Assembly (NCBI GenBank): GCA_020444065.1
Contig: JAHLLQ010000008.1
Location: 1-64,000 of the forward strand
Reading direction: 5' to 3'
Length of the DNA: 64,000 nt
Source: a bacterium
GTDB lineage: Bacteria > Sumerlaeota > Sumerlaeia > SLMS01 > JAHLLQ01
Below the pieces are notes generated by a model, which searched no databases, was not told the origin of the DNA, and saw only the letters and a list, made by a program, of their open reading frames with translations. Below, piece after piece: positions 3,947 through 12,373 of the stretch; position 1 is the stretch's first letter; every line of letters starts with the position of its first letter. Made by a program: the position numbers and the translations under genes.

Positions 3947-4169
3947 GAGTCGATTCCGCTCCCGGCCTTGGCTGGAGTTGAAGAATACCCCGCGCACATC
4001 CTTGCGCAGCAATTCTTCTCATTCTGGGCCGAAGGGAGCGAGAGCATTTCGGACAGCGCAGCTTCTCTGGTGTATACGGTCGCGCCTTGACCCTTGGGAT
4101 CCTCGATGAACTCGGCGCTCCCCGGCTTCGACTCCTGGCTGTGAAGTCCGGTTGACTCTGCTCTCTAGT

Positions 4170-4209
4170 TTGGCTACTCAAAATAACCACGCGATAATGA
4201 CAATTATCG
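4170..4209 (+). promoter_or_regulatory. Integrase promoter with overlapping palindromic operator
   Basis: A -35-like TTGGCT (4170-4175) and a -10-like GATAAT (4193-4198) are separated by 17 nt. The -10 sits inside a perfect inverted repeat: CGATAAT (4192-4198), spacer gaca, ATTATCG (4203-4209). The recombinase ATG is 18 nt further on at 4228, behind AGGAG. A protein bound to the palindrome would cover the promoter, which suggests repression of the integrase. Confidence 0.5.
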
Positions 4210-4227
4210 GGTACTCAGGAGCCAGCC

Positions 4228-5211
4228 ATGGAAAATGCCCTCATCAAGCCAGCCGAAGCCCTGCCCGAGGTCCTCGAAGACCAAGAAGCCTCTCGGAAAC
4301 ACTACGAGGCGAGTTGGGCCAAAGGCACTGTTCGGGCCTACCGATCGGATTGGCGAGACTGGGAGGCTTACTGCAAGGCCAGGGAGCTGACTGCACTTCC
4401 CGCTGATCCGCTGGCAGTTGCCGGTTACCTGTCCGCCCTGGCCGAGGGTAAATGGGGCAAACCGCGGAAAATATCTACGATCGAACGACGTCGGGCAGCC
4501 ATCAGCCATATCCATATCGAGTCTGGGCACCCTGACCCAGCCAATGACCCCCGAGTTCCCAGGGTGCTGAAGGGTATCCGCCGTCAGCTCACGGTGAAGA
4601 GGGAGCAGAAGTCGGCGCTGCGGGCTGACGATGTGAAGCGGATGGTGAAGACGCTGGGAAAGGATCCGAGAGGAATGCGCGACCGAGCGCTGATCCTCCT
4701 CGGATTCGCAACCGCCTGCCGCAGGTCGGAGCTTGCTGGACTCCAGGTCTCCGACCTGAAGGACCACCGCGACGGTCTCGTCGTGGAGATCCGCCGATCG
4801 AAGACAGATCAAGAGGGTGATGGCTTGCTCAAGCTTGTCCGGTGCGGGAAGGACAAAGCCACCTGCCCGGTTGAGGCGCTTCGGGCGTGGATGTCTTCCG
4901 CCTGCATCGACTCTGGCCCTGTCTTTCGCACGATCGGCAACGATCTCGTCGTTGGAGCCGAACCGATCAGCGTTTCCGGAATTTCGCTGGCCGTCAAGCG
5001 AGCCGCGAGGAACGCCGGTCTCAATGCAAGCCTCTTCTCAGCCCATTCGCTACGCGCTGGCTTCGTCACCGAGGCCGATGCCCGCGGGGCGAAGACCTTG
5101 GACATCATGAGCCAGACCGGCCATAAGACTACACGAATGATCAGCGTGTACACACGCTACAATGTGGACGAACGCTTCGAGAGTAGCACGGCTTTGGATG
5201 TGGGGCTCTGA
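4228..5211 (+). CDS. Tyrosine recombinase / phage-type integrase
   Basis: A 327-residue site-specific recombinase, probably the enzyme that moves this island. The N-terminal SAM-like core-binding domain covers about residues 25-115 and the catalytic domain about 125-320. The full catalytic set is visible: R165 (in C-R-R-S-E-L), a Lys near 194 in a beta-turn, H273-x-x-R276, H299 (T-G-H-K-T) and nucleophile Y308, with the usual 9-residue gap between H299 and Y308. Length is typical of compact XerC-like integrases. AGGAG lies 6 nt before ATG. The gene is followed by an XRE/ImmA pair. Its likely target is the tRNA-Gly whose 3' half is at 19138-19182, although it is not next to that end, so it probably lies nearer the off-window border. 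Confidence 0.93.
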   Translation: MENALIKPAEALPEVLEDQEASRKHYEASWAKGTVRAYRSDWRDWEAYCKARELTALPADPLAVAGYLSALAEGKWGKPRKISTIERRRAAISHIHIESGHPDPANDPRVPRVLKGIRRQLTVKREQKSALRADDVKRMVKTLGKDPRGMRDRALILLGFATACRRSELAGLQVSDLKDHRDGLVVEIRRSKTDQEGDGLLKLVRCGKDKATCPVEALRAWMSSACIDSGPVFRTIGNDLVVGAEPISVSGISLAVKRAARNAGLNASLFSAHSLRAGFVTEADARGAKTLDIMSQTGHKTTRMISVYTRYNVDERFESSTALDVGL

Positions 5212-5346
5212 GAGTGTTGGACGAGAACCCAGCATTTCACATCAAATCGATTCGGAATCATCGGAGCCTCAAGAGAAGCTCTGGCTTCGATTACGGCCAG
5301 GCCCTAGCCCAGGCAATAGCAAGCCTTGACATTGTGGGCGGCCTGT

Positions 5347-5366
5347 TGTGTCCTGGGTCGGACACA
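5347..5366 (+). promoter_or_regulatory. Operator O1 upstream of XRE repressor
   Basis: A perfect inverted repeat with 7-bp arms, TGTGTCC (5347-5353), 6-nt spacer tgggtc, GGACACA (5360-5366). A consensus -35 TTGACA is at 5326-5331, so the repeat covers the expected -10 position. The repressor ATG is at 5383. A near-identical site (O2) lies at 6439-6458. Autoregulation by the adjacent XRE protein is inferred. Confidence 0.75.
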
Positions 5367-5382
5367 GGCAGGGTGTGATAAG

Positions 5383-5721
5383 ATGGCAAACGTAACACCG
5401 GGATCCAACGAATTGAAACGGCTGGGTGAGAAGATCCGAGCCGCACGTAACAACCAATCTATCAGTCTGCGCCAGTTTGCCGCTCAAGTTGAGCTATCTC
5501 CGTCTTACTTTAGCAAGGTGGAAAGGGGCGAGGCGTTGGCTGGCAGTCATACATACGAACTGATATGCAGGAAACTTGGTCTTGATTCATCAGAACTTCT
5601 TGGGGAGATCGGGATAATCGATAGTGAAACACAGCGCTTGTTTGAGGAGCAGTATCGGGCAAACGCCTCTAAAGTTCAGGGTTTGCTTCGCAAAATGGCT
5701 CATAAAGAGGAAGAAGGCTGA
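5383..5721 (+). CDS. XRE-family transcriptional repressor
   Basis: A 112-residue DNA-binding protein. Residues 10-65 form an XRE/Cro-CI helix-turn-helix: ...IRAARNNQSISLRQFA..., then ...LSPSYFSKVERGE..., the typical recognition-helix pattern. The tail is helical and charged. ATG 5383 is chosen over an upstream in-frame ATG at 5326, because the upstream extension would run through the operator and is not protein-like. The next gene, an ImmA/IrrE protease, overlaps its stop by one base (TGATG), so the two are made together. By analogy with ImmR/ImmA and DdrO/IrrE, the protease probably inactivates this repressor on a signal. It is likely to bind O1 (5347-5366) and O2 (6439-6458). Confidence 0.88.
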   Translation: MANVTPGSNELKRLGEKIRAARNNQSISLRQFAAQVELSPSYFSKVERGEALAGSHTYELICRKLGLDSSELLGEIGIIDSETQRLFEEQYRANASKVQGLLRKMAHKEEEG

Positions 5722-6416
5722 TGGGTCGGGTTCCGTTTATCCCAGAAGTGAGGATTGCCCGAGCCGCTGACGAATTGATTCGGGCCCACCGAGTGCAGAA
5801 TCCCGTTTTTTCTCCACCGTACTCACTTGATGAGTTGATTTGGGACCATCTCAATCAGGTGGATGATCTGAGCTTGGACGATGAAACGCCTTTGGGGCAA
5901 CACCCTGAAACAGGTGAAGCTATTCTCGGAAAAACGGTTCTCGAACAGCGAGTAATATTCATCGACCCCACCGTAAAGACTCAACCGTACTTCCGTTTCA
6001 CCTTGGCTCACGAGATTGGTCACTGGATTCTTCATTGCCGTCCTCACATGCCAGATCCGAATCAGCTATCGTTGTTCGGGGAAGCTGAAGAGGACTACCC
6101 CAAGGTGTTCAACACTTACCACAGAGCGATCCTTGCACCTTCGCCCGGTCTGGATCCCGAAGAGATCCAAGCCAACAAGTTCGCTGCGTGCCTTCTGATG
6201 CCGGAGGTTGACATGCGCCGGAGTTTCGAGGAGCGGTTTGGGAATCCCCAGACTTGCGGGCCGGGTGAGATAGACGCTGCTGCTCGAAAGCTCGCTTCTG
6301 AGAGAGTCCGTGGCTTTCCAAGCCTCCGCGAATTGTTTGGCACTTCAATCGAGTCAACTGGGTACAGACTAAGAGATCTGAGTCTGGTCAGTGAAGAAAG
6401 CCCACTTTTTTCCTGA
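5721..6416 (+). CDS. ImmA/IrrE family zinc metalloprotease
   Basis: A 231-residue predicted cytoplasmic zinc peptidase. The HExxH motif H97-E98-I99-G100-H101 is intact, and a downstream E-E-I-Q-A-N-K-F-A segment (near 150) supplies the third ligand region, as in COG2856 proteins. The ATG overlaps the stop of the XRE gene by one nucleotide, so the pair is translationally coupled. In the known pairs (ImmA/ImmR of ICEBs1; IrrE/DdrO of Deinococcus) the protease cleaves its partner repressor after DNA damage or a cell signal. The same job is inferred here, releasing the DUF2188 and helicase genes from repression. The C-terminal 60 residues have no recognised domain. Confidence 0.9.
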   Translation: MGRVPFIPEVRIARAADELIRAHRVQNPVFSPPYSLDELIWDHLNQVDDLSLDDETPLGQHPETGEAILGKTVLEQRVIFIDPTVKTQPYFRFTLAHEIGHWILHCRPHMPDPNQLSLFGEAEEDYPKVFNTYHRAILAPSPGLDPEEIQANKFAACLLMPEVDMRRSFEERFGNPQTCGPGEIDAAARKLASERVRGFPSLRELFGTSIESTGYRLRDLSLVSEESPLFS

Positions 6417-6438
6417 GCAGGTGTTTTTTTGCTTGCAG

Positions 6439-6458
6439 TGTGTCCTGTGTTGAACACA
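6439..6458 (+). promoter_or_regulatory. Operator O2 upstream of DUF2188 gene
   Basis: Inverted repeat TGTGTCC (6439-6445), spacer tgtgtt, GAACACA (6452-6458). It differs from O1 at only 3 of 20 positions and has the same 6-nt spacing. A TTGCAG/CATAAA pair (6433-6438 and 6457-6462) could be the promoter, with the operator in its spacer. A very strong ribosome-binding site, AAAGGAGGTG, follows before ATG 6487. Confidence 0.72.
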
Positions 6459-6486: not shown

Positions 6487-6726
6487 ATGGCTACCAAAGG
6501 CAAGCGAATCCATGTTGTTCCTCACGAGGGTGGCTTTGCAGCCAAGCGTGAGGGTACGAACCGGGCCGGGTCAGTACACCCGACACAACAAGAAGCGATC
6601 GAGGCAGCTCAGACCACAGCCCGCCGTGAGCGTGGCGAAGTCATAATCCATCGACGCAACGGCCAGATCCGGGATTCGGATAGTTACGGCTCTGATCCGA
6701 ACCCGCCAAGAGACACCAAGCACTGA
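6487..6726 (+). CDS. DUF2188 domain protein
   Basis: A 79-residue protein matching the DUF2188 pattern: H-V-V-P-H-E-G-G-F-A near residues 7-16, K-R-E-G-T-N-R-A-G-S, then Q-x-E-A-I-E-A-A and a C-terminal R-N-G-Q-I-R-D-S-D-S-Y-G. The family is small, widespread and of unknown function; such proteins are often annotated as stress-related. It has the strongest ribosome-binding site in this part of the island and sits directly behind operator O2, so it should be strongly expressed when the XRE repressor is removed. ATG 6487 is chosen because the SD lies 8 nt before it. Confidence 0.85.
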   Translation: MATKGKRIHVVPHEGGFAAKREGTNRAGSVHPTQQEAIEAAQTTARRERGEVIIHRRNGQIRDSDSYGSDPNPPRDTKH

Positions 6727-6786
6727 CCATACAGAGGGTGGGGTAATCCGGACTCCGCCCTCCAACTATAATCAGGGAGCATTGTT

Positions 6787-7044
6787 ATGACTCTTGAAGG
6801 CGCAGTAATCAAAGAGCAGGGAGTGACGTTCGCCATCGTGATCGTGAAACGGCACGTTATCCAGAGCAACTTCGTCGCGGATGAGGCGATTGCCAAGTGC
6901 CAACCCCTGTTTCCCGGTCTACCTGTGATCCTGATGGCGCAAGATACGTTTGGTGTCCCGACATACTATGGGCGTCAAGACATAGCCAGATTCATGGCAA
7001 ACGTGCCAATTCAAGCCGTTCCTTGGAAGCGTTACACCCTATAG
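6787..7044 (+). CDS. Small hypothetical protein
   Basis: An 85-residue protein with AGGGAG about 9 nt before ATG. It has a compact alpha/beta pattern: two beta-type segments (VTFAIVIVKRHV and LPVILMAQ), one helix, and a C-terminal helix followed by AVPWKRYTL. No family recognised, and no membrane segment or signal peptide. It lies between the DUF2188 gene (60 nt upstream) and the helicase (96 nt downstream) on the same strand, so it is probably part of the O2-controlled unit. Confidence 0.6.
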   Translation: MTLEGAVIKEQGVTFAIVIVKRHVIQSNFVADEAIAKCQPLFPGLPVILMAQDTFGVPTYYGRQDIARFMANVPIQAVPWKRYTL

Positions 7045-7140
7045 CTGGAAGCTCTTATCGGGTCATTCCACAAACGAAACGAAATCTTACTTCGGAGACT
7101 TCTTAGCCTCTCCCAAAAACAACAAACCTAGGAGTAGCCC

Positions 7141-8940
7141 ATGACTAGCCCTTTTCAGACCCGCCAGCCCGAGATCGATGGCAACAATCGGATTCGTACG
7201 CCACAACGCGAGGCCTACTTGGCACTGCGCAACCACGCCACCCGGTCGAACGAGGCTGAGCGAGAGGTTGGGCTGGTGCTTCCAGTTGGTTGCGGAAAGT
7301 CTGGGTGCATAACCATTGCCCCCTTCGCCTTCGGGTCCAGGCGTTCGCTTGTTGTCGCGCCGAATGTACCAATAGCTGGGCAACTCGCATCCGACTTCGA
7401 TCCGTCAAACCCAAACATGTTTTACCAAAAGTGCCAGGTCATTGCGGGTGCTCCCTACCCGGAGCCTGTTGAGATCCGGGGCACAACCACGAATCGAGCA
7501 GATCTCGAAGAGGCCCATGTGGTTATCACGAACATCCAACAACTTCAAGGAGGTCAGACGAATCGATGGCTCAGTTCTCTGCCCGACGACTTCTTCGATC
7601 TTATTTTGTTCGATGAGGGCCACCACAGTGTGGCGGCAAGCTGGAGCATGCTGAAGGACAGCTTCCCATCAGCAAGAATTGTCAATTTCAGCGCGACACC
7701 CCTGCGTGCCGACGGGCAGCAAATGGGTGGGGAAATCATCTACTCTTACCCCATTTTCCGTGCGATCGAGGAAGGCTATGTAAAGCGATTGAAAGCAGTT
7801 CAGCTAAACCCAAGGACGCTTCGCTATGTTCGGCGGCAAGACGGGGAGGAGATTGAGGTTGATTTGGAAGAGGTTCGTCGTCTTGGAGAAGATGATGCGG
7901 ATTTCAGACGCAGTATTGTGACCTCAGCCGAGACATTGAATACGATAGTGGATGCTTCAATAAGGGAGCTGGACCGTCTTCGCAGCGAGACAGGCGAAGG
8001 TCGCTTGAAGATTATCGCTTCAGCTTTGAACTTCGAGCATTGTCGACAAATCGTTGAAGCCTATCGCGCTCGAAATCGCCGTGCCGAATATGTACATTCT
8101 CGTGAAGACAGCGCCGCGAACGATCGTGTCATGAGCCGCTTGGAGAACCATCAGATTGATGTCATTGTTCAGGTTCGCAAACTGGGTGAAGGATTCGACC
8201 ACCCCTACCTTTCGGTCGCTGCGGTATTCAGCATTTTCAGTAACCTTTCCCCATTCGTTCAGTTCGTTGGTCGTATCATGCGAGTCATCATACAAAACGC
8301 ACCTGGTCACAACCTCAATCAAGGTGTTGTAGTATTCCACGCCGGAGCCAACGTCGCGAGACAGTGGAATGATTTCCAATCCTACAGTGAAGCAGACCAG
8401 GAATACTTCGACCAGTTGCTGCCACTTGAGGGGATTGATCCGGCAGATATAACGGCTGAACGTGAGTACGTACCGCGCCAGCATGGGGTTGAGATTCGTG
8501 CTCAATCAGATGTCTTGATGCAGGAGATTCCGCTACTTGATGACAATGAAGCTATGCGGGCATTGCGGTTGCTTCGTGATCGTGGCTACGAACCCGAAGA
8601 CATCGCCGCTGCGTATCGCACCCTGGAGCCAGTTCCGACCACCAGAGTTCGGGAGCGCCAAGCACTTCGAGCCGGGTTAGATCAACGAATCCGGACGGAA
8701 GCCGCCCGTATTCTCAACGAGCGCGGGATGAACCCAGGGGGACGAGAGCTAGACCGCCAGCGGTTGGGAAGAGACAACCTGATCATCCTGAAGTCGGCGA
8801 TTGATCGGAAAGTGAATTCTGCGATGGGACACTCAAGCGGTCAGCGCCATGAGTTTTCCAGGGATGATCTGGATAGAATCAATCTCCAGTTCAACGAGTT
8901 TGTGACGGAGGCCTGCGAGGAGGTGTTCAATGGCGACTAA
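7141..8940 (+). CDS. SF2 DEAD/DEAH-type helicase
   Basis: A 599-residue helicase-like ATPase. Motif I is variant V-G-C-G-K-S-G near residue 50, motif II is D-E-G-H-H near 158, motif III is S-A-T-P near 184, and motif VI is Q-F-V-G-R-I-M-R-V near 375; V-R-K-L-G-E-G-F-D-H before it is the usual motif V. The layout resembles the helicase part of type III restriction or UvrB-like enzymes, but no nuclease or methylase domain is seen. The C-terminal 200 residues are helical, charged and unassigned. GGAG lies 6 nt before ATG. The last 11 nt overlap the next gene, a small Cys/His protein, so the two products are probably made together. A role in DNA or RNA surveillance, perhaps defence, is inferred from context. 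Confidence 0.88.
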   Translation: MTSPFQTRQPEIDGNNRIRTPQREAYLALRNHATRSNEAEREVGLVLPVGCGKSGCITIAPFAFGSRRSLVVAPNVPIAGQLASDFDPSNPNMFYQKCQVIAGAPYPEPVEIRGTTTNRADLEEAHVVITNIQQLQGGQTNRWLSSLPDDFFDLILFDEGHHSVAASWSMLKDSFPSARIVNFSATPLRADGQQMGGEIIYSYPIFRAIEEGYVKRLKAVQLNPRTLRYVRRQDGEEIEVDLEEVRRLGEDDADFRRSIVTSAETLNTIVDASIRELDRLRSETGEGRLKIIASALNFEHCRQIVEAYRARNRRAEYVHSREDSAANDRVMSRLENHQIDVIVQVRKLGEGFDHPYLSVAAVFSIFSNLSPFVQFVGRIMRVIIQNAPGHNLNQGVVVFHAGANVARQWNDFQSYSEADQEYFDQLLPLEGIDPADITAEREYVPRQHGVEIRAQSDVLMQEIPLLDDNEAMRALRLLRDRGYEPEDIAAAYRTLEPVPTTRVRERQALRAGLDQRIRTEAARILNERGMNPGGRELDRQRLGRDNLIILKSAIDRKVNSAMGHSSGQRHEFSRDDLDRINLQFNEFVTEACEEVFNGD

Positions 8941-9157
8941 ATCCCTCATCACTCCCGTGCGTGTCGAAAGAGCCGAAAGGGCACACAACTGCCAAGCCAA
9001 TGCACGCCATCGAATTGAGCGAGGAGATGTAAGGCTCAAGGTTCGCAATGGACGGGGATGGGATCACTACTGTCGAGATTGTGCAGCCAAGATTATCTCC
9101 AGGGATATCGAGAAACTCCGTAGCCTGCAACACCTTGAAGTAGAGGAGGATGTGTAA
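8930..9157 (+). CDS. Small putative zinc-binding protein
   Basis: A 75-residue protein whose ATG lies inside the end of the helicase gene, behind AGGAGGT. Cys and His residues are spaced as possible zinc ligands: C-x5-H near residues 21-27, then H-Y-C-x-x-C near 46-50, with a G-D-V-R-L-K-V strand between. The arrangement is loosely like PARP-type or other small treble-clef fingers. It is very likely a partner of the helicase, given the 11-nt overlap. The specific function is unknown. Confidence 0.65.
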   Translation: MATKSLITPVRVERAERAHNCQANARHRIERGDVRLKVRNGRGWDHYCRDCAAKIISRDIEKLRSLQHLEVEEDV

Positions 9158-9307: not shown

Positions 9308-10501
9308 TCATTCAACTGCCCTCTTCAGTTCTGCGATAGAGGTGGCAACTTGCTTTCGACTGCCGTCGCTGATAACCATCTTGTCCGCCCAAATCTTCAT
9401 TCCGGCTGAGAGCTTGTTGTCATAGCAGAGAAAGATATCGCATTTGTGAAGGGCGGAGGCATGGTCGACGTCGAAGGTCAGTCCTTCGGTTGGAGGTTCT
9501 CCGGTTGCAAACATTTTCTCCAGTTCACGGAAAACCAGATCCAACATCATGGCGGGTTGAATTAGTAAGCCCAGCCGATGGTAACGCTCCAGCAAGAGTT
9601 CCCAGAGTTGGGCCGTCTGCTTTGAAGTCAGAATCCCATTGGTTCGGCTTCCAAAGTCAGGTGGTAGAGGGGTAACATCGTCCTGCTTGATGGAAAGGTC
9701 TGGGTGCGGGAAGGGTTGATCCCAATCAGCAATTACTTGCTGGTAATTCATGAGTCGGTAGCTATCCCACGGGGACGGAACCGCAGCCACCAACGCTGGG
9801 AGAGCAAGCGACACAATTCGTTGGGCGATGAGATCCTCCCGATTCTTCTGAAACTTGGAAACACTCCGCCTGGCATCTTTTCCCGGAGTGAATTCGGACA
9901 ATAGTTCCTGAATCTTTGCCTCCATTTCTTCAACTGACAACGTCGCGTATCCCTTATCGCTCTCCATGTGGAATTTCAAATACTCCTCTTGAGTCATCTT
10001 GAGCGACGAAAGAACCAGATTAGGATCCAGCAGGATCTGAGTGTGCTTCAGTCGCGAGAGCTTCTTCGATCTCAGTAACTCCTCATTAGCCCCCGATGCG
10101 TCGTAGTCAACGAGCGCAGCCATGTGTGCAATCACACCGCTGTAAATCCGCTGATTGTCCCCTTGGAGTCTCTCCCGAATGTCATACTGAACGCAGCCTG
10201 GCCAGTGTGTATCGATCAGGTGGAGGAACTCCTGAAGAATCACAAACTCAAAACTTGGAAGTATCCGTCTCCCACGAGTGAGATTCTCCAGTGCCTGACT
10301 CAGCTTCTGCCGAAGTTGCAAATCTGTGCACAAACAAAGCTCAATGGCATTGTGAGCAGACCCCCAGACCTGAATCTTTCCCTCTTCCTGTAACGCGAAT
10401 AGGCAGTCGTATAGAGGTGTTCCACTACCCGAAGCCAAATCAAAGGCTGCGCGGGATAGCGCGGACTGCTCAAGATAGACACTTTTGGGCTTATCAGTCA
10501 T
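9308..10501 (-). CDS. Large protein with PIN-like ends
   Basis: A 397-residue protein on the minus strand, with GGAG a few nt before ATG 10501. The N-terminus (S-V-Y-L-E-Q-S-A-L-S) has the form of the first strand and turn of PIN nucleases, with Glu where Asp is usual. Near residues 340-360, D-V-D-H-A-S-A-L then C-D-I-F-L-C-Y-D-N-K resembles the later acidic positions of the same fold. The middle 300 residues are helical and look like an insertion. A PIN-like RNase with a helical insert is suggested, not proved. It converges on the helicase unit across a 150-nt gap that has no clear terminator. Confidence 0.5.
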   Translation of the reverse strand: MTDKPKSVYLEQSALSRAAFDLASGSGTPLYDCLFALQEEGKIQVWGSAHNAIELCLCTDLQLRQKLSQALENLTRGRRILPSFEFVILQEFLHLIDTHWPGCVQYDIRERLQGDNQRIYSGVIAHMAALVDYDASGANEELLRSKKLSRLKHTQILLDPNLVLSSLKMTQEEYLKFHMESDKGYATLSVEEMEAKIQELLSEFTPGKDARRSVSKFQKNREDLIAQRIVSLALPALVAAVPSPWDSYRLMNYQQVIADWDQPFPHPDLSIKQDDVTPLPPDFGSRTNGILTSKQTAQLWELLLERYHRLGLLIQPAMMLDLVFRELEKMFATGEPPTEGLTFDVDHASALHKCDIFLCYDNKLSAGMKIWADKMVISDGSRKQVATSIAELKRAVE

Positions 10502-10755: not shown

Positions 10756-11265
10756 TTATCCCCTCTTCTTCCACTTCTTCAGTCTCGCGTCGCACTCGGC
10801 CTTCGGGAGCCGACGTTTGTTCTGGAGCAGGTGCTCCAGCTTTGACGCGGCGAGGCGTTCCTCCAGAAGCCCCCTCTGGACCAAGGTGTCGAGAATCCAG
10901 AGCGTTCCGTGGATCTCAACCGAACGCCCAACGCCCGCACGACGGAGAGGACCATCACCAGTCAGGAGCATACATTCCAACCTCTCTGCGAGCCAGAGAA
11001 CAGAGCAGTCTGCCAGATCGGGCCCTTCCCCAACTGCTTCCATCATTTCGACCAATTCACCGATTTCATCGACGGACAGACCATGGCATCTGACGTGGTT
11101 CGTGCGGATGTAGGCAAGCGCGATGGCGTGGCCGCCTTCCTCAAGCTGCCCTTCGATCAAGTCCGTCGTATGCGTTTCAATCCCGTTCTGAAACCAAAGG
11201 TCGAAAAGCCCGGCAATTTCAAGATCAATCAGGATGTTGGCGTCCTGCACGGCCACGCGAAGCAC
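10756..11265 (-). CDS. PIN-domain ribonuclease, probable toxin
   Basis: About 169 residues. The N-terminus has V-Q-D-A-N-I-L-I-D-L-E, the standard PIN start with its first catalytic Asp; near residue 92, L-A-D-C-S-V-L-W-L-A-E holds a later acidic residue, and L-L-T-G-D-G-P-L-R-R matches the last one. GTG 11265 is taken as start; a TTG at 11286 would overlap the upstream gene by 17 nt. It lies 4 nt after the XRE-ImmA gene on the same strand. Small PIN proteins next to COG2856 (XRE plus ImmA/IrrE) antitoxins form known toxin-antitoxin modules, so it probably cuts RNA when not neutralised. The C-terminus is strongly basic. Confidence 0.75.
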   Translation of the reverse strand: MLRVAVQDANILIDLEIAGLFDLWFQNGIETHTTDLIEGQLEEGGHAIALAYIRTNHVRCHGLSVDEIGELVEMMEAVGEGPDLADCSVLWLAERLECMLLTGDGPLRRAGVGRSVEIHGTLWILDTLVQRGLLEERLAASKLEHLLQNKRRLPKAECDARLKKWKKRG

Positions 11266-11269
11266 GATC

Positions 11270-12373
11270 TCAGACCGCCTTCCCAAACTGCTCGTCGAAC
11301 TCCCGCAGTGTTACCCGAAGAAGCCCCGTCGCCTTCGACCGCGTGATCAGGTCCTGCGCCGACGCCCGATGGACAAGCTGGCGGAAGCGGTTTGCCGACT
11401 CGCTCCCGGCCCAGGTGCCCGGCTCCTCCTTACGAAGGCCGGACTGGCTTGCGTGTATGCAATAGGACCGATAGGACTCCTCAACGATGATACCCAAATC
11501 CTTCGCCCGGCGCATCAGGGCGTTGATCGACATGCCCCATTGCTCCTTCATGGCGATGAGTTCTTGAAGGCTCACGTTTGGGAACGAGCGCTTGCGCCCG
11601 AACTCCGCCACAAAGGCTTCCTTCGGGATCAGCATCGCGCCAGCGAACCGGTAGCAAGCCGCCTCCTCGGTCTTCTTGTCGAGCCCCTCGGGCATCTTCA
11701 TCACCAGGTGCCCCAGCTCATGCAGTACCGTCAGCCGCTTACGAGGAAGATCACGGTCCAGCCACGCTCCCAGCACGACGACCGGCGAACCGTCGGCCCA
11801 GCCCGAGAGTCCGTTGAAGCTCTCCTCGGCTTCGACGCTCTTCACTTTCACGCCGTGATCTTCCAGCAACTCGATGGTGTTCGGCAGCGGCCCTGTCCCG
11901 AGCTTCCACGTCTTGCGTACCTTCTCGGCTGCTTCCTCCGCGCCGGTCATCAGGGCCTCGCCCTTGCGATCGGTCAGGTCGACTTTCAGCATCGGCGGCA
12001 TCTTCATCTCCAGGATGCGCTCGATCTCCAGGTAGCGCTCAAAGAACTCCTGCGCCTCCTCGATCACCTGCTCCTGCTTCTTCTTGCCGAGCTTGGCCTG
12101 CTTGCGGAACTCTATGCCGGAGAGGGTCACGCCGTGGCGCTCGAAGAAGAAGTCTGGCCGCACCGCCAGCGCCTTCGCCAGGGCGATAAGCACCTTCGAG
12201 TCTGGCTTCATAAGGCCCTTCTCGTACTTTGCAAGCGCAGCGTGCGAGACCAGCCCGCCCATCTCCCCAGATAGGCCCCGCAGCGACAGACCTCGCAGGG
12301 TACGCCCCCGCCGAAGCCGTTCGCCAAACCGCTCGTTCAGGTCTGTGTTGTTGGTCTGGGTGGTCGTTGTCAT
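11270..12373 (-). CDS. XRE-ImmA/IrrE fusion antitoxin/regulator
   Basis: A 367-residue two-domain protein. Residues 14-70 are an XRE helix-turn-helix (G-E-R-L-R-R-G-R-T-L-R-G, then ...S-H-A-A-L-A-K-Y-E-K-G). Residues 150-330 are an ImmA/IrrE zinc peptidase with H218-E-L-G-H222 and a downstream E-E-A-A-C-Y-R-F-A-G-A-M-L-I-P segment. Repressor and protease are fused here, unlike the separate pair at 5383-6416. AAGGGGG lies 7 nt before ATG. A PIN protein gene follows at 4 nt. Likely roles are antitoxin and autorepressor, with the protease domain perhaps sensing a trigger. It is divergent from the glycosyltransferase/radical-SAM operon across 288 nt. Confidence 0.85.
   Translation of the reverse strand: MTTTTQTNNTDLNERFGERLRRGRTLRGLSLRGLSGEMGGLVSHAALAKYEKGLMKPDSKVLIALAKALAVRPDFFFERHGVTLSGIEFRKQAKLGKKKQEQVIEEAQEFFERYLEIERILEMKMPPMLKVDLTDRKGEALMTGAEEAAEKVRKTWKLGTGPLPNTIELLEDHGVKVKSVEAEESFNGLSGWADGSPVVVLGAWLDRDLPRKRLTVLHELGHLVMKMPEGLDKKTEEAACYRFAGAMLIPKEAFVAEFGRKRSFPNVSLQELIAMKEQWGMSINALMRRAKDLGIIVEESYRSYCIHASQSGLRKEEPGTWAGSESANRFRQLVHRASAQDLITRSKATGLLRVTLREFDEQFGKAV

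Follow-up and report, generated by a model that had tools for sequence, protein, structure and literature searches.

We consider it likely that the locus described here is a controller of the CapH-CapP type that stands in line with its cargo; this is the best explanation that we have for it. It lies in a 64,000-nucleotide stretch of contig JAHLLQ010000008.1 (the window) and combines an XRE-type repressor gene and an ImmA/IrrE-like protease gene with two candidate operators, O1 before the repressor and O2 before the next gene, which encodes a DUF2188 protein. This switch probably turns on DUF2188 upon DNA damage or attack. The switch type is already known; new are its in-line version with DUF2188 and an 85-aa partner (orf85) and the recurrence of DUF2188, neither of which we found in the open literature, outside which most subscription papers lie. 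The features of the locus are:

4228-5211, + strand: tyrosine recombinase (PF00589, 4.5e-18)
5347-5366, no strand assigned: O1, palindromic operator candidate before the XRE gene (TGTGTCC-TGGGTC-GGACACA)
5383-5721, + strand: XRE/HTH_31 repressor, 112 aa, CapH-like (PF13560, 6.8e-10; PADLOC capH, 3.2e-7)
5721-6416, + strand: ImmA/IrrE (M78) metallopeptidase, 231 aa, CapP-like, with HEIGH motif (PF06114, 5.7e-12; PADLOC capP, 3.2e-17)
6439-6458, no strand assigned: O2, second operator candidate, before the DUF2188 gene (TGTGTCC-TGTGTT-GAACACA)
6487-6726, + strand: DUF2188 protein, 79 aa, first gene behind O2 (PF09954, 1.9e-23; PADLOC PDC-S16, 2.2e-30)
6787-7044, + strand: orf85, 85 aa, conserved unannotated family (no Pfam match; plasmid relatives; model pLDDT 91)
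7141-8940, + strand: SF2 helicase (ResIII), possible distal cargo (PF04851, 3.3e-22)
8930-9157, + strand: 75-aa protein overlapping the helicase end, which accompanies the helicase on plasmids

The first-pass annotation had proposed that paired operators flank the regulator genes. Both 20-bp sites were re-found at its coordinates, ahead of the repressor gene and of the DUF2188 gene, with 17/20 identical positions, an equal 6-nt spacer and a 7-6-7 layout. The arms of O1 form a perfect 7-bp palindrome around the 6-nt centre, and those of O2 pair at 6/7 positions (one arm mismatch) around a centre of the same length. The XRE start codon (5383) lies 16 bp past O1 and that of DUF2188 (6487) 28 bp past O2, the latter gene having AAAGGAGGTGG as its Shine-Dalgarno sequence. 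We searched the whole 5.20-Mb genome with the pattern TGTGTCC-N6-GGACACA, allowing up to two arm mismatches and using the reversed pattern as a control. At one mismatch or fewer, O1 and O2 were the only two sites in 5.20 Mb, which rules out a motif of random genome frequency; sites with two mismatches were scattered through the genome in about the number found with the reversed pattern. A 17/20 match between both intergenic regions was reached in 0/3000 shuffles under a dinucleotide model, and a perfect 7-6-7 palindrome arose upstream of XRE in ~1% of shuffles. Since a search of the window alone with three mismatches allowed gave a site count at chance, the case for O1 and O2 being significant lies in the strict sites and in where they stand. 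Neither O1 nor O2 gave a promoter in a sigma-70 scan. The higher symmetry of O1 relative to O2, likewise seen in R. phaseoli (see below), suggests, as a guess from the sequences, that autoregulation may be tighter than control of the cargo.

The coupling of the two regulator genes was confirmed: at TGATG (5719-5723), the stop codon of XRE and the start codon of ImmA share the A. As in CapH-CapP controllers, an XRE/HTH repressor adjoins an M78 metallopeptidase with intact HExxH, here HEIGH, followed by a downstream E..A..FA..LLMP helix. The predicted operators likewise lie at both the regulator and the cargo promoter, as is the case for such controllers. The XRE protein matches ClgR structures in a sequence search, and among the PADLOC models HTH_VI and control-protein models score slightly above capH, itself a weak match (3.2e-7). 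No close relatives of the XRE-ImmA pair were found among plasmids; viral contigs, phages and the small phylum yielded only weak ones. One viral contig (L008) carries XRE-ImmA and has no O-like site. A further match (G017) was rejected as a relative, being a different sigma-like/ImmA module.

Compared with CapH-CapP, the locus shares an XRE-type repressor and an ImmA/IrrE-like zinc protease, next to what may be an immune-type operon. It differs in its cargo, which is DUF2188-orf85 and perhaps the helicase pair instead of CBASS, and in its arrangement, with co-directional genes and two separate operators here but one divergent promoter region there; in addition, the alignment of ImmA with the capP model covers chiefly the catalytic core (70-171). 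IrrE/PprI-DdrO also pairs an M78 protease with an XRE-type repressor, whose cleavage is a prediction at our locus. DdrO governs many DNA-repair genes via the RDRM, whereas two strict sites were found in our whole 5.2-Mb genome, and a DdrO-type regulon is ruled out. In Deinococcus, the ssDNA-activated M78 protease cleaves the XRE-type repressor (PMC10904395), and two papers describe cleavage of CapH by CapP upon ssDNA binding (PMC13373217, PMC10904395). An experimental parallel for paired control of regulator and cargo comes from CapK-CapS, in which CapS binds two palindromes, one at its own promoter and one at that of the downstream immune operon, and in which small YegP genes also occur as cargo (PMC13373217). 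Here, too, one regulator is predicted to act on palindromes at its own and the downstream operon; CapK-CapS, in contrast, consists of a kinase and STAS-wHTH proteins, includes no protease and is unrelated in sequence.

In the mechanism that we propose, a dimer of the XRE protein would bind O1 and O2 and hold down the xre-immA and DUF2188-orf85 operons, and at O2 possibly also the helicase pair. The ImmA/CapP-like zinc protease would be activated, most likely by ssDNA during phage attack or DNA damage, and would then cleave the repressor. Both promoters would open, the cargo would be made, and fresh repressor would reset the switch. DUF2188 would serve immune operons as a general accessory gene, standing first behind such a switch. 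We infer that XRE binds both sites and is cleaved by ImmA, and likewise how far the O2 operon reaches; ssDNA is the presumed trigger by analogy with CapP and PprI (PMC13373217, PMC10904395). The protease-triggered switch put forward in the first-pass annotation stands up well to comparison, as homologous cassettes of R. phaseoli and Nitrosospira have paired operators, while repressor binding and cleavage are predictions; IrrE/DdrO and ImmA/ImmR, the models it named, are less apt than CapH-CapP, which is nearest.

In the beta/gamma-proteobacterial CBASS group, TGTTGTC-N6-GACAACA (0-1 mismatch) was present in 19/20 divergent intergenic regions. This operator has the same 7-6-7 layout as O1/O2, at a near-fixed distance and with nearly invariant arms and a variable centre; the sole exception (L071) has three mismatches, and XRE-ImmA was not detected there. 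Cassettes arranged in line, as in the window, test the reading more stringently. On plasmid pRetR611b of R. phaseoli, the genes XRE-ImmA-DUF2188-multiubiquitin-E2-ThiF-DUF6527 run in one direction throughout, with the site ACGCTGAT-CTGCGT-ATCAGCGT before XRE and ACGCTAAT-TAGCGG-ATCGGCGG before DUF2188, a pair match equalled in 15/3000 shuffles. A related in-line XRE-ImmA cassette of Nitrosospira (L136, 4342-4629), followed by a DUF3892 gene, has a clear operator pair of the R. phaseoli sequence type (0/1500 shuffles). A Paraburkholderia cassette gave no significant ungapped operator-pair match and showed similar half-sites by eye. The cargo differs among these in-line cassettes (DUF2188-multiubiquitin, DUF3892, a JAB operon), and O1/O2 are unrelated in sequence to the R. 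phaseoli and Nitrosospira pairs. The two-operator layout therefore recurs with unrelated site sequences, as predicted for a functional XRE switch. With candidate operators for at least two unrelated kinds of in-line XRE-ImmA cassettes, targets can be predicted directly.

The DUF2188 protein of the locus matches PF09954 with 82.8 bits (curated cut-off 22) over the full profile (1-62 of 62), and PADLOC model PDC-S16, which we take from its name to be a phage-defence-candidate model. Strongly conserved in the family are HVVP and E, H, G and IR positions. Its fold was predicted with modest confidence (pLDDT 74), and the model matched nothing in Foldseek below E 0.001 and reached a VIA Z of at most 3.3; a sequence search returned no credible solved homologue. 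We scanned a DUF2188 alignment against 84,980 genomes, which gave 325 relatives, and examined the best 80 of these 325 loci, that is, those closest to a seed set already including ImmA-linked sequences, many of them from related species. Among these similarity-selected loci, an ImmA gene lay within 2.5 kb of DUF2188 in 62 of the 80, upstream and divergent in 61 and usually behind an XRE gene. The sampled genomes carry ~3 M78 genes each, and chance proximity was estimated arithmetically at ~0.3% per DUF2188 locus.

The genes 3' of DUF2188 in the same similarity-selected set were largely immune genes: patatin with a DncV-like cyclase, E1-E2 and JAB; a SMODS cyclase with SAVED and E2; TRIP13; and multiubiquitin with ThiF. 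A CBASS cyclase was present in at least 37 of the 80 loci, and some gene of the listed immune kinds in 53. One CBASS relative with DUF2188 (L091) encodes a full-length capP (2.7e-72). On plasmids, DUF2188 loci contained a TIR gene (Sphingomonas), a ThiF-patatin operon (Ruegeria) and a CBASS phospholipase (Mesorhizobium). A WYL (CapW-like) regulator replaces XRE-ImmA at three loci (L025, L060, L133), and some DUF2188 genes of Klebsiella, E. marmotae, Sinorhizobium and Nostoc have no adjoining ImmA. The earlier remark that such a switch had not been reported for a DUF2188 gene holds in so far as the open literature, which leaves out most subscription papers, yielded no role for DUF2188, the papers naming it dealing with other topics in title and abstract. 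The linkage itself is widespread, with ImmA and with many immune operons, and the first-pass annotation had overlooked that DUF2188 recurs at the head of immune operons.

Tentatively, and with somewhat less than even confidence, we read DUF2188 as a general constituent of bacterial immune operons that has so far gone undescribed, stands first behind controllers of the DNA-damage type (CapH-CapP, XRE-ImmA fusions, WYL) and is common to CBASS, multiubiquitin-ThiF and TIR loci. Together with the 85-aa family it would form a compact protease-switched unit, also found beside IetAS, and DUF2188 may serve to hold back, prime or license the effector after the switch has opened. As a small conserved protein before several different antiviral systems, with the same kind of protease switch, DUF2188 would allow one deletion or reporter to probe a step common to bacterial immune systems.

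Directly 3' of DUF2188, orf85 was also found on R. johnstonii pRL8, on pRi1724 and on R. etli and Gemmobacter plasmids. In three Rhizobium cases of DUF2188-orf85 (L107, 2224-6261; L108; L109), the pair is divergent from genes for an ATPase and an S8 peptidase, a defence pair of the IetAS type; the pRL8 proteins score as IetA (1.4e-100) and IetS (3.5e-59). Relatives of orf85 without DUF2188 lie near XRE-ImmA or sigma-like/ImmA modules (L110, L123, L124). Because a search of 26 DUF2188 genomes detected no orf85, we regard it as one alternative cargo. Its model is a confident small alpha/beta fold (pLDDT 91); the matches to an epimerase-type enzyme (best Z 6.2) and to tRNA-splicing endonuclease subunits (Foldseek E 0.005) were middling, and neither was taken as its function. 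On two Ti plasmids (L113 and L114, 5347-6240 each), a partial DUF2188 match lies beside an IS5 element, and the end of the orf85 relative there differs and is shortened.

Relatives of the helicase occur on 130 plasmid records from many genera, with up to 70% identity, and the annotated helicase plasmids that we inspected were without XRE-ImmA-DUF2188. A homologue of the 75-aa protein overlaps or adjoins the helicase end in 6/6 plasmid loci read (L017-L022). Because this pair recurs on plasmids without the cassette, its control by O2 is only possible. The helicase and 75-aa ORF (7141-9157, + strand) may be a separate defence unit. Among the genes behind O2 (6487-9157), none encodes the CD-NTase cyclase that would mark CBASS. 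The cargo here, DUF2188-orf85 and perhaps the helicase pair, matches no known system in Pfam or PADLOC; DUF2188 recurs in immune operons elsewhere.

Other explanations of the locus were weighed against these data. In ICEBs1 and prophages, ImmR is an autoregulated repressor that is removed by the protease ImmA, and XRE-ImmA might similarly control integration and excision of a recombinase-bearing element, with DUF2188 as a passenger. Such a mobile-element switch would account for the tyrosine recombinase adjoining XRE-ImmA, and the overlap and order of the two genes resemble those of ICE regulators as generally known. However, the recombinase has no strict O-type site before it, the window holds no third strict site, and the only strict sites genome-wide precede xre and DUF2188, so that the excision switch implied by the proposed ImmA/ImmR likeness is not borne out. 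The cargo is, moreover, of immune-associated type, and DUF2188 accompanies ImmA in many lineages beside immune genes, which argues against a passenger; we consider this explanation improbable. It is very improbable that XRE-ImmA is a self-regulating toxin-antitoxin module of the COG2856-Xre type and O2 a side effect or minor site. Xre-COG2856 pairs reportedly feature in a comparative survey of toxin-antitoxin and related modules, and close by stands an XRE-ImmA fusion that, with its DUF3368 partner, resembles a toxin-antitoxin pair; yet the protease here follows XRE with HEIGH intact, its family is known for cleaving repressors, the next operon has in O2 a strict copy of the site, and the paired layout returns in independent cassettes.

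DUF2188 could also belong inside the control loop, for example by feeding back on the ImmA protease as its inhibitor or activator, instead of being a cargo effector. That it mostly adjoins the controller and heads the operon, with whichever cargo, would fit such a role, as would its strongly conserved residues. Because it also stands beside WYL regulators without ImmA and beside IetAS without XRE-ImmA, DUF2188 is nevertheless not tied to one protease, and we regard a place in the control loop as unlikely. The CapH-CapP-type controller in line with its cargo is the reading that we prefer.

Downstream of the helicase unit, a 397-aa ORF with no family match (9308-10501, - strand) separates it from the XRE-ImmA fusion (RmrA-type, 1e-55), which adjoins a DUF3368 PIN-like gene and forms a separate toxin-antitoxin-like pair with it (10756-12373, - strand). 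In other genomes, modules of a sigma-like ORF, a ~145-aa ORF and ImmA were seen in L104 (4623-6476), L110 (3753-5556), L124 (2808-4605) and L070 (about 4000-5842); two of these modules are divergent to orf85 relatives. Sigma70_r2 scored just under the cut-off in L110, the only locus tested. These modules suggest a sigma-type regulator as the target of M78 proteases.
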